Assembly (NCBI GenBank): GCA_017792345.1
Contig: CP051228.1
Coordinates: 1,736,001 to 1,800,000, forward strand
From: Mesoflavibacter sp.
Lineage (GTDB): Bacteria; Pseudomonadota; Alphaproteobacteria; UBA8366; Aestuariispiraceae
DNA length: 64,000 bases
Direction of reading: 5' to 3'
Shown here: piece after piece, positions 8,452-14,428 of the stretch
Position numbering within the stretch: position 1 is the stretch's first letter
Layout of the letters: every line of letters begins with the position of its first letter
Made by a program: the position numbers and the translations under genes
The notes under the pieces: model-generated
Told to the model about the DNA's origin: nothing
Database searches by the model: none
What the model saw: only the letters and a program-made list of their open reading frames with translations

Positions 8452-8910
8452 ATGCCCCATGCCAGCGCCCGCCACCAGACCGGGGCCGACACCGCCATGA
8501 CCGAGATCGCCCTGGCCCTCGCCATGGCATTCTTCGCCATTCTGGTGCTTGCCCTGGTCTCCATGGGCGCGGGACAGCCGCCGAATACCGCCCCGAAGTC
8601 GGAAAGCGACATCCTGGCCGCCACATTGATCCCGCCCGGACAAGAAGGGTCGGCAACGCCTTTGGAAAGCCGGGACGTGCTGGTCGTCTATCACAGCGGA
8701 CGTTTTCTGGACCGCGATCTTGCACCCTTGTCCGATGCGGCGCTGGCGGCACTGTCGGCCATTCGGGAGGGAGAAGGGCGGGTGGTCTTGGCCGTCCCGC
8801 CGGACCTGCCGCTGGGGGAGGCGATGGCGGCGCGTGGCCGGATCGACCGCCCCGATCTGCTGGTCACCGTCCTGAATGCGGATTGGACGGCGCGGCTTCG
8901 GTCCGAGTGA
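8452..8910 (+). CDS. Small single-pass membrane protein of unknown function
   Basis: A 152-residue protein with one membrane segment (about residues 18-40, EIALALAMAFFAILVLALVS) and a C-terminal soluble domain of about 110 residues. The ATG at 8452 has AGGAG seven bases upstream; the open frame extends further but without a better site. The segment begins with a glutamate and is rich in Ala, Met and Phe, faintly like the plug helix of MotB or ExbD-type stator proteins, but no MotA/ExbB-like partner is nearby and the resemblance is too weak for a call. It precedes a lytic transglycosylase by 78 bases on the same strand, so the two may be cotranscribed. Confidence 0.6.
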   Translation: MPHASARHQTGADTAMTEIALALAMAFFAILVLALVSMGAGQPPNTAPKSESDILAATLIPPGQEGSATPLESRDVLVVYHSGRFLDRDLAPLSDAALAALSAIREGEGRVVLAVPPDLPLGEAMAARGRIDRPDLLVTVLNADWTARLRSE

Positions 8911-8988
8911 TCGGGATTCCGCACCCGGCCCTGCCATAGGGTCGATCGGGCCCAAGAATGCCCCGAAACTTGAAGAAGGAGGCGGCCG

Positions 8989-9897
8989 ATGCGCCGAAAC
9001 ACAATGATTTTCCCGCGCCGCATCGTGCCGGTCCTGGCTGCGTCCGCCCTGTTGCTCGGGCTCGGCCCGGCTCTTTCGGACAGGCCCGTCCTGGCCGCCA
9101 TTGCCCCGCCGGCGGGTTCCTCCCAGGCGGCGGTTCAGAAAATTCTGGTGGAGGAAGCGCTGATCGATGGCGTCGTGCCGCCAACCCTGGCACTGGCGGT
9201 GGCGCAGGTGGAATCGAATTTCGACGCCTCGGCGCTCAGCCATGCCGGTGCGCGCGGCGTCATGCAGATCATGCCCGCCACCGCACAGGGCGAATTCGGT
9301 GTTTCGGCGGACAGGCTCTACGACCCGCGGCTGAATGCGCGCCTGGGGGTCGCCTTCCTGCACAAGCTTTATGTCGCCTATGGCCGCCGCTGGGATCTGG
9401 CGCTGTCGCATTACAATGGCGGCAGCTTGACCCGGGTCGGCGGGCAATGGCGGCCGCATGGCTATACCAGCGGCTATGTCCAGAAGGTCATGCGCTATTG
9501 GAACGCCTATCAGCGGGCGCGCTGGGTCGGCGTGCTGGTGGCGGAAACCCGGCGCAACGAAACGCGGCTGGCAGCGGATGCGCCGCATGCCGACATCGGC
9601 ACGCAGGCACAGTTGGCCGCGGATTATGCCTATATGGAGGATCCAAAGATCGACCATGATTGGCGGGATTATCTGCGTGTCGCCGACCGGTGGATGAAAG
9701 CCGGGGGGCAGGAAGCGGGCGAAGCCGCGCCGGTCGATTTCAGCGAAACAGCCGCCGCCGACCCCGATTGGCATTATCCGCTGCGCGCCGGCGGCGCCCC
9801 CGTTTTGCCGGATACGGCGGGGCTGAAAGGGGCGGAACGCTTCCTGAATTCCAGCCGGTACTGGTCCAGGCCCACGCCTGGCGCAGTGTTCAACTGA
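8989..9897 (+). CDS. Periplasmic lytic transglycosylase (SLT domain)
   Basis: A 302-residue secreted enzyme predicted to cleave peptidoglycan between MurNAc and GlcNAc with 1,6-anhydro product formation. The signal peptide spans about residues 1-37. The SLT domain (about 60-180) has the catalytic glutamate at residue 75 in AVAQVESNFDASALS, followed by GARGVMQIMPATA and LSHYNGG, the family-1 motifs. The C-terminal 120 residues are not recognised. GAAGGAGG lies upstream of the ATG at 8989. It heads, at a distance of 117 bases, the three-gene run beginning at 10015; whether they belong together is unknown. Confidence 0.88.
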   Translation: MRRNTMIFPRRIVPVLAASALLLGLGPALSDRPVLAAIAPPAGSSQAAVQKILVEEALIDGVVPPTLALAVAQVESNFDASALSHAGARGVMQIMPATAQGEFGVSADRLYDPRLNARLGVAFLHKLYVAYGRRWDLALSHYNGGSLTRVGGQWRPHGYTSGYVQKVMRYWNAYQRARWVGVLVAETRRNETRLAADAPHADIGTQAQLAADYAYMEDPKIDHDWRDYLRVADRWMKAGGQEAGEAAPVDFSETAAADPDWHYPLRAGGAPVLPDTAGLKGAERFLNSSRYWSRPTPGAVFN

Positions 9898-10014
9898 CGG
9901 GAGGGCCATGGAATGGGAGCCGTCGGCTTTTTCGTGACACCCGGCGACGGCGCTGGCTACTCTGCCCGCGGACGCCGCAGCGCGCCGTCCAGGCAGTCAG
10001 GGGAGAGCCAGACC

Positions 10015-11475
10015 GTGTTGAGCGCCGCCCATCGGGTGATCACCGCCGGACAGAGCCCCGCCTTGCGCGATCTGTTCCGATCGCTGGCGGAAATCGAGGG
10101 CGCGGGCGGACCGAAATTTTCCCGCAAGGCGCTGCATGTCCTGGCCCAGGCCGTCGCCTGCCGGTCCTATGAACGCATGGCGCTGGAAACCGTCCATCTT
10201 GTGCGCGCCGCGGCGCTGACGGCGGGACGTCACGGCTTCGAAGGCGTGTTCTGGGGTATGGACCAGGCCACGGCCAGCGCCTTCCGAGGCCATTTTGCCG
10301 GCCGGGCGGAGATTCCGGGACGGCTGGCCGCGATCGACGGCGGTGTCGAGCTGCGCTATCCCGACGGGCGCTTTGCGGTTCGGTTCGGCCGGATGCCAAT
10401 CCTCTCCGCCTTTCTGGAATTCACGGTCGCCGCTATCGGGTTTGCGGCGCTGACCGACATTCTGGCCGGGATCGATGCGCCGGACGGAACGGTAGCGGCG
10501 CAATCGAAGGCCGCCAACGCCCTGTCCCGCGCGCTCTACGAGTTTCTGGGCGACCATCTGCCGACCGTGCAGGCCCAGCGCAAGTTCCGCAGCCTGATCG
10601 CCTTCCTGGAACGCGATCTGGGCCGGGATTTCCGTCCCGAAGCGATTGACGACGAAACGGTGCTGGATTTCTGGCGCGATGCCAGCAGCCCCGGTCGGGA
10701 GGGAAGCGGGGAGGGCGGCGACTTCCGCGCCTATCGCACCGTCGTCCTGGCCTTCCTGCGCCTGGTGGAACTGCTGGAGGATGGCGATGCGCTGGCCCGG
10801 TTCGAGCGCATGCACGCGATCGGTCCGGACCGGGAAGCGGGCGAGGTCGATCCGGGCGAGGATTCCTATCTGAACGGCGCCGAATGGGCACCCGAGAACC
10901 CGCTATCCGCCTTTGCCGAAGCGCCCCTGGATGCGGTCAAGTTCCTGAACAAACGGGAGACCGAGGCGCTGACCCTGCCGGCCGAGGAGGGCGCGCGTCT
11001 GCTGCGTCTGCCCCTGTCCTATCTTCGGGCGGAAACCTTCGGCACCGGGCAGCACCGATTGATCCAGGCCTTGCGGCGCAAGGCGGATCTGGCCGAAATC
11101 CGAACCATTGCCGAGGATGCGGCGCCGCAGACCTATACCGACCGGATCGCACTGCTGAACCGGATCGACGAGCATTTGCAGAAGCTCGCCCTGGCGTCGC
11201 TGCATGTTCTGGGCGGCGGCGGGGATGAGACCGCGCTTCGCGCTCGGAAGGCCTTCGAAGCCCTGTCCCGGCAAGGTTTTGAGGCTCACAGACTGAACGA
11301 TCCGGATATTCAGGCGGCGTTTCAGGAGGCGGCCGCTCCCTTGGCCGAACTGCGTGAGCGGGTCCGCACACTTCTGAACCGCCTGGAAGCCGGACCGGAT
11401 TGGGCACAGGCCTATCGCGACGATCAGGCGGCCTTCGCCGAACAATTCCTCATTCTGTATGGAGAGGCGGCATGA
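10015..11475 (+). CDS. Unrecognised 486-residue helical protein
   Basis: I do not recognise this protein. The reading frame opens at 9913, but the first 34 codons look non-coding and the GTG at 10015 has GGGGAGAG at the right distance, so I start there. It is mostly helical, with no signal peptide or clear membrane segment, one hydrophobic stretch near residue 130 (LEFTVAAIGFAALTDIL) that is probably a buried helix, and a linker rich in Gly and Glu near 225. Its stop overlaps the start of the next gene (ATGA at 11472-11475), so it is translationally coupled to it. It is the first gene of a three-gene run that ends with a Lon-like membrane protein. Confidence 0.7.
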   Translation: MLSAAHRVITAGQSPALRDLFRSLAEIEGAGGPKFSRKALHVLAQAVACRSYERMALETVHLVRAAALTAGRHGFEGVFWGMDQATASAFRGHFAGRAEIPGRLAAIDGGVELRYPDGRFAVRFGRMPILSAFLEFTVAAIGFAALTDILAGIDAPDGTVAAQSKAANALSRALYEFLGDHLPTVQAQRKFRSLIAFLERDLGRDFRPEAIDDETVLDFWRDASSPGREGSGEGGDFRAYRTVVLAFLRLVELLEDGDALARFERMHAIGPDREAGEVDPGEDSYLNGAEWAPENPLSAFAEAPLDAVKFLNKRETEALTLPAEEGARLLRLPLSYLRAETFGTGQHRLIQALRRKADLAEIRTIAEDAAPQTYTDRIALLNRIDEHLQKLALASLHVLGGGGDETALRARKAFEALSRQGFEAHRLNDPDIQAAFQEAAAPLAELRERVRTLLNRLEAGPDWAQAYRDDQAAFAEQFLILYGEAA

Positions 11476-12020
11476 GCGGCGCGTCCTGGCAATCCCGAAG
11501 CGAGATCGAGAAAGCGCGGATCGAGACGGCTTTCAGCGCGCGTCACGCCGCCGATCTGTGGCTGGATACCGCCGGTCCGGGACAGGCGAAACCCGCCGCC
11601 TTGCCAATCCTGTATCGCGCCGCGATGGACCCGACCGCGCCATTGCCGGCGGCGCTGGTGGCGCAGCTGACGACGGATACGCAGCTGAAGGCGGATTTCG
11701 ACCGCCTGCTGTCGCGGATCGCGGCCTGTCGGATGCCGCGTGCCGCCGCCGCCAGCAGCGGATCGCTGGACCGGCGGGAGGCGCAAGGCTTCGTGCTGCG
11801 CATTCGGCCGTCCCGCGCCGATCCGGATCAGGTCTATCTTTTGATCGACATCCCGGATCGGGCAGACACCCCACAAGTGTTGATGGCCCGCGGCAATGGG
11901 GAAATCCTACGGCGCGCGCTGGGCGAACCCCAGGACGGCATGTTTCGATTGATCCTGGAACGATCCGACCCGCTGCTGGCGGCCATCGGGGATCCGGCGA
12001 CGGAGATCGATCTGGTATGA
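11472..12020 (+). CDS. Unrecognised 182-residue protein
   Basis: The start ATG overlaps the stop of the preceding gene by four bases (ATGA), so the two are coupled. The protein is soluble, helical in the first 110 residues (with LTTDTQLKADFDRLLSRIA) and then probably beta-rich, with REAQGFVLRIRPS and PDQVYLLIDIPDRADTPQVL. I see no catalytic motif. The layout, a short helical part followed by a compact sheet domain, would suit an adaptor or regulator of the neighbouring proteins, but that is a guess. A 53-base gap separates it from the Lon-like gene on the same strand. Confidence 0.65.
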   Translation: MSGASWQSRSEIEKARIETAFSARHAADLWLDTAGPGQAKPAALPILYRAAMDPTAPLPAALVAQLTTDTQLKADFDRLLSRIAACRMPRAAAASSGSLDRREAQGFVLRIRPSRADPDQVYLLIDIPDRADTPQVLMARGNGEILRRALGEPQDGMFRLILERSDPLLAAIGDPATEIDLV

Positions 12021-12073: not shown

Positions 12074-13219
12074 ATGGGGGTGCGTGTTTACATTGCGACA
12101 ACGGAAGGGCCGGCCCTTATCCAGAGGGTCGCCGCCGAGGAATCCGACATTCCGCCGGTCGTCTGTCTGAATGGAACAACGGAAACCCTGCCGATCAGCG
12201 ACGCCTATGGACGGTTCGTGCGGCGCGGGTCGGGCATTGTCGCGAAGCTGACCGGGCACGATTCCTACAGGATCGACCTGGACCGGGGCATCGACGGCGG
12301 CAGTTCCTGGCAGTTGGGTGTCCTTCTGGCGCATCTGCTGATGGTTCAGGGACGTCTGGCCGGACCCCGCGATCCGGTCGACACCGTCATTTTCGCCACC
12401 GGGGAGGTTGACCGCGATCTGTTGATCCGCCCGGTTGGGCATATCGACCGGAAAGTCGCCGCCTGCCAGGCCGCCGTCGACGTGGAGGCGGCGGGAGGCG
12501 TGAGATGCCTGTTCCTCGTTCCGGCGGGTGACGGACCAATCGATCCCGCCGTGACCGCGATCGCGTCCCTGGAGGAGGCGGCGGCCTTATTGTCGATCCA
12601 TGTGCCGGGCGGAACCGCCGCACCGGCTCTGCCGCCGGCCCCGGCAACTAAGGAAAGCGGTTTTTCCGGGCGCCGCGCGATTTTGGGCCTCGGTGTCGTC
12701 CTTGCATTGGGTGCCGGTCTTTATGCCCAGCGGGATCGCATCTCTGCCCTTTGGCAGGATCCCACTCCGGAAAGTCCGCCGCAATCAACCGCCGCGCCGG
12801 TCGTGGAGTCTGCAGAGACGCCGGATCAGACCGGCATCGCCGCCGTGACCGTCCAGGCGCTGCTCGCACCCGCGGGCTTTTCCTGTCCCAGCCTTCGGTT
12901 TGCCCAACTGGACCTGGTGCCCGAGACGCCAGTGCGATTGTCCGATGGGCAAGTGCTTGAAGGTCAGGGTGCAACCTGCAAGCTGCGCTACAGATTCGAT
13001 GGGGCCGGCTTGGATGAAACGGCGCGCACCGGGGATTTTGAGATGGTGTGGCAGGCTGGCGGAGGAACCGTTAAGGCGGCCGGTCCAGCATCTGCCGATG
13101 CGCCGCTGGTTTTGGAGGTCGATTGGTCCGAAGAGTCCAACGATTCGGTCGTCCTGACGGTCTCACCAGAAGATGGCAGGGGCGATATCTTGGTGTTGCG
13201 TCACAGGATCACGCGGTAA
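12074..13219 (+). CDS. Membrane-anchored protein with Lon-like (S16) proteolytic domain
   Basis: A 381-residue protein in three parts. Residues 1-175 resemble the proteolytic domain of Lon: GIDGGSSWQLG (72-82) matches the DGPSAG serine loop with S77 at the nucleophile position, FATGEVDRDLLIRPVG (107-122) matches the TGEITLRGxVLPVGG strand pair, and HIDRKVAA places K127 exactly at the catalytic lysine. A membrane helix lies at about 202-218 (ILGLGVVLALGAGLYA). Residues 230-381 form a probable exported domain with two cysteines. There is no AAA+ module, so ATP-driven unfolding is absent or supplied in trans. By topology the peptidase part should be cytoplasmic. It closes the run begun at 10015. 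Family assignment is by motif only. Confidence 0.65.
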   Translation: MGVRVYIATTEGPALIQRVAAEESDIPPVVCLNGTTETLPISDAYGRFVRRGSGIVAKLTGHDSYRIDLDRGIDGGSSWQLGVLLAHLLMVQGRLAGPRDPVDTVIFATGEVDRDLLIRPVGHIDRKVAACQAAVDVEAAGGVRCLFLVPAGDGPIDPAVTAIASLEEAAALLSIHVPGGTAAPALPPAPATKESGFSGRRAILGLGVVLALGAGLYAQRDRISALWQDPTPESPPQSTAAPVVESAETPDQTGIAAVTVQALLAPAGFSCPSLRFAQLDLVPETPVRLSDGQVLEGQGATCKLRYRFDGAGLDETARTGDFEMVWQAGGGTVKAAGPASADAPLVLEVDWSEESNDSVVLTVSPEDGRGDILVLRHRITR

Positions 13220-13456: not shown

Positions 13457-14428
13457 TTAGACGACCAGCAGGGTCGATCCTGTGGTCTTGCGGGCTTCCA
13501 GATCCTTGTGGGCCTGAACGACATCCGCCAGGGCATAGCGCTGATTGATCTCGATCTTCAGCCCCTTGGCATAAGCATCGAACAGGGCAGTGGACGATTC
13601 GACCAGATCTTCGCGGCTTGCGGTATAGGTCATCAGGGTAGGCCGCGTCATGAAGAGCGAGCCCTTGGCCGACAGCGTGCCGAGATTGAAGTTCTGAATT
13701 GGTCCGGACGCGTTGCCGAAGCTGACGAACATGCCGCGCGGGCGCAAGGAATCGAGCGACCCGTCGACCGTCGCCGCCCCGACACCGTCATAGACAACCG
13801 GCACCCCGGCGCCGTCGGTGATTTCGCGAACGCGCTTCGCAACATCTTCCTGCCCGTAGAGAATGACGTGGTCGCAGCCATGGGCCTTCGCCAGCGCCGC
13901 CTTTTCCGGCGACCCGGCCGTACCGATGACGGTGGCGCCGATCTGTTTCAGCCATTGGCAGGCAATCAGGCCGACCCCGCCCGCAGCCGCCTGGAACAGG
14001 ACCGTATCGCCCGGCTGAACCGGGTAGGTCCGGCGGATCAGATATTCGACCGTCATGCCTTGCAGCATCATGCCGGCCGCGGCCTCGTTGCTGATCGAGT
14101 CCGGCAGCTTGATCAGGCGGTGCCAGGGCATCAGGCGTTCGGTCGCATAGGCGCCGACCGGCGGCGCCGCATAGGCGACCCGATCGCCGACCGCCAGTTC
14201 CGTCACGCCGTCGCCGACCGCCTCGACCACGCCGGCCGCTTCCAGGCCGATTGCGCTGGGCAGTTCCAACGGGTAGAGGCCCGTGCGGTGATAGACGTCG
14301 ATATAGTTCAGCCCGCAGAAATCCTGTTTGATGCGGACTTCGCCCGGTCCCGGGGCGCCGACCTGGACATCCTCAAAGACCATATTCTCCGGCCCGCCGG
14401 CCGTGTGGATGCGAACTGCCTTCGCCAT
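13457..14428 (-). CDS. NADPH:quinone reductase (Qor-like, zinc-free MDR)
   Basis: A 323-residue medium-chain dehydrogenase/reductase of the quinone oxidoreductase type. The N-terminal catalytic domain includes CGLNYIDVYHRTG, where the usual zinc-binding cysteine/histidine pattern is replaced as in Qor. The Rossmann domain has VLFQAAAGGVGLIACQ (about 144-159) and IGTAGSPEKAALAKA (about 169-183). It reduces quinones or related carbonyls with NADPH in the cytoplasm. The ATG at 14428 has GGAGGAG upstream. It is convergent with the Lon-like gene, from which it is separated by about 240 bases where I see no gene. Confidence 0.9.
   Translation of the reverse strand: MAKAVRIHTAGGPENMVFEDVQVGAPGPGEVRIKQDFCGLNYIDVYHRTGLYPLELPSAIGLEAAGVVEAVGDGVTELAVGDRVAYAAPPVGAYATERLMPWHRLIKLPDSISNEAAAGMMLQGMTVEYLIRRTYPVQPGDTVLFQAAAGGVGLIACQWLKQIGATVIGTAGSPEKAALAKAHGCDHVILYGQEDVAKRVREITDGAGVPVVYDGVGAATVDGSLDSLRPRGMFVSFGNASGPIQNFNLGTLSAKGSLFMTRPTLMTYTASREDLVESSTALFDAYAKGLKIEINQRYALADVVQAHKDLEARKTTGSTLLVV

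Follow-up and report, generated by a model that had tools for sequence, protein, structure and literature searches.

Lon peptidases form MEROPS family S16, with the LonA, LonB and LonC groups, and both the Lon fold family and Lon domains that lack a motor are already known. Proteins of the YlbL type are built as transmembrane helix, PDZ domain and Lon domain. In Zorya systems, the helix protein ZorB carries an OmpA domain. In CalpL, the CRISPR-associated Lon protease of the CalpL/T/S system and a Lon-SAVED protein, ligand-driven oligomerisation precedes the cutting of bound CalpT into two fragments (PMC11417357, PMC12751052).

The locus described here lies in a window of 64,000 nucleotides, the whole stretch of DNA that was analysed, from a genome of the family Aestuariispiraceae (contig CP051228.1). 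Its central gene, C, encodes a Lon-like peptidase domain joined to a membrane helix, and is preceded on the same strand by genes for two proteins, A and B. The features to which the text refers are the following:

8452..8910, plus strand: T, a small protein with one membrane helix (AMTEIALALAMAFF...) that carries an invariant Glu (19-row alignment)
8989..9897, plus strand: SLT lytic transglycosylase with a hydrophobic segment at its N-terminus (Pfam SLT, E 4.1e-21)
9913..11475, plus strand: A, about 490-520 aa, without a known family, likely start GTG 10015
11472..12020, plus strand: B, a helical N-domain and a beta C-domain, without a known family, in ATGA overlap with A
11733..11762, plus strand: B residues 88-97 (MPRAAAASSG), candidate site of cleavage or docking; the best conserved ten-residue stretch of B, at a dip in pLDDT
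12074..13219, plus strand: C, Lon-like peptidase domain, membrane helix and C-terminal domain with two conserved Cys (381 aa ORF)
12074..12601, plus strand: C residues 1-176, Lon proteolytic domain fold (AF2; VIA-align model range 1-175/177)
12305..12307, plus strand: Ser78 of C, predicted nucleophile (39/39 rows; forced HHalign, low column confidence)
12452..12454, plus strand: Lys127 of C, predicted catalytic lysine (39/39 rows; inside the HHalign-aligned Lon region)
12671..12751, plus strand: C residues 200-226, predicted helix taken as membrane anchor (AF2; hydrophobic stretch in 37/39 rows, positive-inside bias)
12842..13216, plus strand: C residues 257-381, beta-rich, low confidence, probably periplasmic (AF2; conserved Cys271 and Cys302)
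13457-14428, opposite strand: oxidoreductase-like gene 3' of C, named by eye

The start of T at 8452 is suggested by the homologue in locus L014, and A probably begins at GTG 10015, as its homologues and an upstream GGGAGAG indicate.

Compared with Lon, C shares the fold, the Ser-Lys dyad and the landmarks TGE...PVG...K, but it has no AAA+ domain, is membrane-anchored and is missed by Pfam Lon_C. It has in common with YlbL a membrane-bound Lon domain without AAA+, whereas it gives no PDZ match and its Lon domain, predicted to be cytoplasmic, precedes the helix. With CalpL the likeness appears to lie in the mode of working, a Lon domain acting with dedicated partner proteins, as C would with A and B; C is nevertheless probably not a CalpL member. 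In C, a membrane helix and an outside domain come after the Lon domain, no SAVED or CARF domain is recognised, and profile matches to such proteins are weak; the PADLOC match of window C spans residues 69-135 only, and the part after the helix is of low confidence in AF2. By eye, no sigma factor or Cas protein was noticed among the neighbours of the C loci inspected. A narrow literature search, which took in few subscription journals, found no paper on the architecture of C, on the partners A and B or on the envelope cluster described below, and none in the same literature linked a Lon protease with DUF4384, ExbB/TolR, ZorA/ZorB or nSTAND. The word Lon is absent from PMC7159879 and PMC8195603.

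Residues 1-176 of C almost certainly adopt the Lon fold, which bears out the Lon-type peptidase domain that an earlier note on this DNA had recognised at the start of the chain. The analysis is based on an alignment of 39 rows, comprising the window protein and 38 of the 43 loci obtained in a search for related loci in genome contigs (L112, at a contig end, the near-duplicates L117 and L139, the fused L151 and the 1454-aa L153 were left out). In the AF2 model of full-length C built with it, the ten-residue blocks of residues 1-150 have pLDDT values of 94-98, and those after residue 150 up to 180 have 78, 96 and 90. With this model, Foldseek returns nine PDB matches at E<=0.001, each of them a Lon or RadA Lon-like domain, and VIA-align reaches Z 14.7 over 148-149 residues against RadA and M. 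jannaschii Lon, its best 50 entries being exclusively Lon, RadA or ComM. The family profile of C, when compared with the PDB, matches 39 sequences at E<=1 (best E 0.0012), all of which are named Lon, protease La, endopeptidase La or TTC1975 peptidase. HHalign scores the family at 90% against Lon of the same order (E 1.6e-6, with window residues 106-172 aligned) and at 49% against a LonB-like set, versus a maximum of 1.7% against 15 non-Lon profiles. Single-sequence searches give no Pfam or NCBIfam family for the window protein and chance-level best rows in the PDB (SUMO-2, with E 0.22, and glutamate dehydrogenase). Pfam Lon_C is absent from the matches of 11 C members, and its three matches in the window's genome do not include C. 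As regards family S16, C has the fold and a predicted Ser-Lys dyad and falls outside the curated Lon_C profile.

Ser78 and Lys127 do not vary in any of the 39 rows, some of which are as low as 21% identical to the window protein, and they are among only nine invariant columns of the alignment. The earlier note had placed the nucleophile at S77, a position that varies (S, N, E, M, L, Y, R, K); it is Ser78 that is conserved at the DGPSAG position, and a forced HHalign alignment pairs the Lon serine with it, at low per-column confidence. K127 had been rightly taken as the catalytic lysine, and the expected serine and lysine are thus both kept in homologues. The SW...K pattern is also retained, by eye, in the C proteins of L151, L153, L071, L073 and L074. 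C is predicted to be an active peptidase and probably is one. RadA and ComM, which are thought to use the Lon fold as a scaffold or oligomeriser, are found among the top structural matches, RadA in a tie with Lon, and it could be argued from this that C is a membrane-bound scaffold or oligomeriser that has retained the fold and cleaves nothing. The preservation of both residues across so divergent a set, next to a neighbour as variable as S77, makes this reading unlikely, and C is considered below as a peptidase.

A hydrophobic stretch of 17 residues is present after the Lon domain in 37 of the 39 rows, and the remaining two rows end short there. In the window protein this stretch is below the 19-residue hydropathy cut of 1.6, and AF2 still models a helix at residues 200-226, in line with the single membrane helix proposed earlier. 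Over the 37 rows, the mean net charge is +2.8 in the ten residues that precede the stretch and -0.35 in the ten that follow it, so that the Lon domain is probably inside and the C-terminal domain, which the earlier note had called exported, in the periplasm. AF2 confidence is poor across this C-terminal part, in which Cys271 is kept in 38 of 39 rows and Cys302 in 36 of 39, and perhaps they form a disulphide. No unfoldase domain is found on the window chain, and the absence of an AAA+ motor holds for it, but in L153, a divergent homologue, the chain includes a STAND NTPase.

The genes upstream of C were described in the earlier note as encoding two unrecognised proteins coupled by ATGA, and this is what is found: the stop of A and the start of B share ATGA at 11472-11475, and none of A, B and C is in Pfam. 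For A, searches against Pfam and NCBIfam give nothing usable (a single chance-level Pfam row, E 0.18), no Pfam family is common to more than one of 33 A members, and the profile of A has no relative in the PDB at E<=1. B has no Pfam or NCBIfam family, and its AF2 model has a pLDDT of 88.5. Structural matches of B to CBM56 (Foldseek E 5e-3, over 70 columns only) and to MATH and other VIA-align entries (Z <=5.5) were dismissed as common beta arrangements. The view of both partners as cytoplasmic is compatible with B, which has no predicted membrane segment in a hydropathy scan; A may touch the membrane, as its residues 130-148, numbered from 10012, form one hydrophobic stretch that passes the cut-off. 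Residues 88-97 of B (MPRAAAASSG) have the highest mean information of all ten-residue windows, with A93 and A94 kept in 35 of 35 sequences. The block 91-100, between the helical and the beta domain, has a pLDDT of 75, as against 94 and 95 in the flanking blocks; a second, deeper dip at 31-40 (pLDDT 66) is not conserved.

The three genes keep their order, as the earlier note had anticipated. C is found in 13 of 59 genomes sampled at increasing distance, with A and B next to it in order in the window and in each of the 12 relatives retrieved. By HMM count, A, B and C lie in order on one strand in 25 of 29 loci (28 and the window) and in 38 of 43 genome-contig loci, two overlapping sets that have some contigs in common. 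The exceptions are diverse. C is alone in L068/L150, with B on another contig of the same genome; A is missing from L071 and also from L073 and L074, whose B is very divergent (in L073 it is seen with the wider profile only); L133 and L141 have neither A nor B; L115 is at a contig edge and L153 is rearranged. Across 385 genomes of the class, C is present in at least 19 and B in at least 21, which include 19 of 19 C-bearing ones (Fisher 3e-30, kinship ignored). Presence is patchy within the window's genus (2 of 6 genomes). The loci belong mainly to Alphaproteobacteria, with some Gammaproteobacteria and one Binatia MAG, and named carriers include Aestuariispira insulae, from the window's family, Terasakiella, Nisaea, Curvivirga, Pseudogemmobacter and Agaribacter.

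Some divergent loci show other arrangements. The protein encoded at L153:9992-14353 in Pseudogemmobacter bohemicus, some 1450 aa long, joins the Lon-like domain to an NTPase of the nSTAND1 clade (E 1.3e-65); the strand of this gene also carries a homologue of A, and the opposite strand a weak one of B. L151:9977-11767 encodes, in a single chain, a Lon-like domain, a helix, a sub-threshold CsgG-like part (Pfam E 0.027) and DUF4384. In L073 and L074, C is followed by a secreted-looking gene, a trypsin-like protease, an OmpA-like protein and a NagZ-like hydrolase (OmpA named by HMM, the others by eye). In L059 (G340), the A gene is broken into two ORFs, that of C has an in-frame stop and c12, one of the families introduced below, seems frameshifted near its end, defects that reflect either decay or sequencing errors.

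The idea of a membrane peptidase with two cytoplasmic partners is too narrow as a description of the locus: T and SLT (8452-9897) belong to the same cluster, and a block of about eight genes co-occurs with it elsewhere in the genome. Overall, the observations of the earlier note hold with the one correction of Ser78, and its interpretation is partly supported. Clustering of neighbours across loci gives the recurrent order c19, T, SLT (one or two), A, B, C, c9, c10, c11, c12, c15, c16, c20, to which some loci add OmpA (c28) and cX. Of these families, c19 is CsgG-like by eye and DUF4384 by Pfam, c9 is a lipoprotein by its box, c10 is a coiled coil by eye and c12 has three hydrophobic segments in the copy of the window's genome; in the block that accompanies A-B-C, which takes in predicted lipoproteins, periplasmic proteins and the c12 membrane protein, OmpA and DUF4384 alone reach the Pfam cut-off. 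Both T and SLT are represented in most loci including the window: 21 of 29 have a homologue of T, and 22 of 29 have one of SLT ahead of A, counting L071, where A is absent. c10 lies near C in 14 of 29 loci and in 13 of 43 genome-contig loci, many of these stretches stopping at contig ends. In the window relatives L014, L015, L016 and L022, c9-c20 do not adjoin C, and in the window's own genome c9-c10-c11-c12-c15-c16-c20-cX are found at about C1:1,426,700-1,433,300, some 315 kb from C.

The co-occurrence of this block with the three genes is evident at the level of the order, where B is present in 13 of 43 genomes and c10 in these 13 and one more (Fisher 3.8e-10), and c12 is found in the same 14 genomes as c10. 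The one genome of the order that has c10 alone, G038, is 62% complete. In G022, the c10 and c12 matches come from a divergent second copy (L109), and the usual cluster stops at a contig edge; L109 (G022:C11) itself follows the order T, SLT, A, B, C, except that B is replaced by an unrecognised ORF, and continues with c9-c12, c16 and c20. Among the 385 genomes of the class, c10 is present in at least 19, of which at least 14 also bear C (Fisher 9e-18, kinship ignored), and among the matches listed there are five genomes with C and without c10 and five with the converse. In three of the c10-only genomes (L222, L223, L224) the order is c19-T-SLT-c9-c10..., A-B-C being missing between SLT and c9, while the contigs of the other two are too short to judge that absence. 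The c19 protein of L222-L224 ends, by eye, in a peptidoglycan-binding-like repeat. Conversely, when c10 was sought in 20 C-bearing genomes, some of them from the class sample, seven were positive: it is beside C in two, G418 and, with one copy out of two, G321, elsewhere in five of the remaining 18 and absent from 13. A single obligate system made of A-B-C and the block was ruled out, as each occurs without the other. Because the block occurs without A-B-C and vice versa, A-B-C looks like an add-on, or plug-in, module of the machine that the block would encode, one that exists elsewhere too.

As to the nature of this machine, c12 and T offer a weak, sequence-based lead towards ion channels of the ZorA kind, which is not an assignment to these families. 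One ZorA2 model of PADLOC weakly matches 9 of 13 c12 members (best E 2.5e-4), and the PADLOC model of KwaA matches three of the 13 (best E 1.8e-4). Pfam MotA_ExbB matches two of the 13 (best E 0.1), with other membrane families scoring better, and a search of the window's genome with it does not detect c12. HHalign against TolQ, ExbB and MotA profiles from relatives gives at most 7.8%, and membership of c12 in these families is not claimed. The Pfam matches of c12 members are scattered over 31 families, mostly of membrane proteins, with DUF6008 at 1.6e-4 in one member, and were set aside as composition noise. The Glu at the start of the T helix is invariant in 19 of 19 rows, and its context resembles that of the MotB helix; T is MotB/TolR-like by appearance only, no Pfam family is common to more than one of its 19 members, and OmpA is not among their matches. 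The profiles of c12 and T give one chance-level row apiece against the PDB. The genome that contains the window (G000) also has two MotA_ExbB matches that overlap in different frames at the contig start (G000:C1:3068-3621), and another TolQ-like match near the contig end, possibly a frameshift or an assembly end effect. The cluster resembles Zorya and the Tol, Exb and Mot systems in the weakly ZorA-like c12, the T helix with its invariant Glu and, in some loci, an OmpA gene, but it differs from them in lacking a significant Pfam MotA_ExbB match and in adding SLT, a Lon-like protease and many unknown proteins. In contrast to ZorB, T (138-152 aa) has no OmpA domain, and OmpA is a separate gene where it is present.

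The ZorA matches of c12 invite the reading that the whole set is a Zorya-like defence system, with infection sensed by an ion-driven machine of the envelope and C acting as effector or switch protease. Among the 39 C members, PADLOC matches CARF-Lon in nine, CRISPR-Lon in four and SAVED-Lon-TM in three, and the C homologue of L153 is fused to nSTAND1, an NTPase clade named in a paper on conflict systems (PMC8195603). All of these matches are weak, however, with the exception of nSTAND1. Furthermore, PADLOC at E<=1 matched C and c12 alone among A, B, C, T, c10, c11, c12, c16, c20 and cX, and the patchy presence within the genus fits defence and simple loss alike. A defence role seems rather improbable. 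Membrane-tethered Lon proteins with broad roles do exist, archaeal LonB and Bacillus subtilis YlbL among them, but the view of C as a general inner-membrane quality-control peptidase with A and B as adaptors is harder still to sustain, given a window chain without a detectable unfoldase domain, so tight a genetic link to B and a distribution limited to at least 19 of 385 genomes.

The reading that we prefer, with a probability of about 0.4, is that C drives the cleavage of its partner B in response to the state of the envelope. According to this model, C would be a Ser-Lys peptidase of the Lon fold, tethered beneath the inner membrane by a single helix and bearing a cysteine-paired sensor domain in the periplasm, and would form with A and B a portable three-protein module. 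In many carriers, this module would be plugged into an undescribed trans-envelope machine, whose parts would be a weakly ZorA/TolQ-like membrane protein, a MotB/TolR-like helix with its Glu, lytic transglycosylases, predicted lipoproteins, a CsgG-like/DUF4384 protein and sometimes OmpA. C would oligomerise when a certain state of the envelope or the machine is sensed outside, and would then clip B once, at the conserved AAASSG loop between the two domains of B; the cut would alter the A-B complex and, with it, the machine. The computation shows the fold, the invariant dyad, the gene order, the co-occurrence, the topology bias and the position of the B motif, while the activity of C, the role of B as its substrate, the sensed signal and the output are inferred. 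B is the natural candidate substrate of C, and its cleavage at the AAASSG loop is a guess, as a docking site would look alike. A broader proposal, which we put forward as rather doubtful, is that A-B-C is a portable module of proteolytic signalling, through which a state sensed outside would be turned into one cut in a partner protein. Here it would be plugged into a so far undescribed, ion-driven machine of the envelope with some ten gene families, the majority of which have no Pfam entry, and elsewhere into STAND-NTPase or CsgG/DUF4384 contexts.

If the cleavage model is true, Lon peptidases would gain a membrane-tethered, motor-free branch with invariant predicted catalytic residues, and regulated proteolysis would be tied to an envelope complex, so that C may represent a novel type of signalling protease in bacteria. 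The locus would also bring together about twelve co-occurring gene families, many of them unannotated, in bacteria for which strain records exist (Aestuariispira, Terasakiella, Nisaea and Curvivirga).
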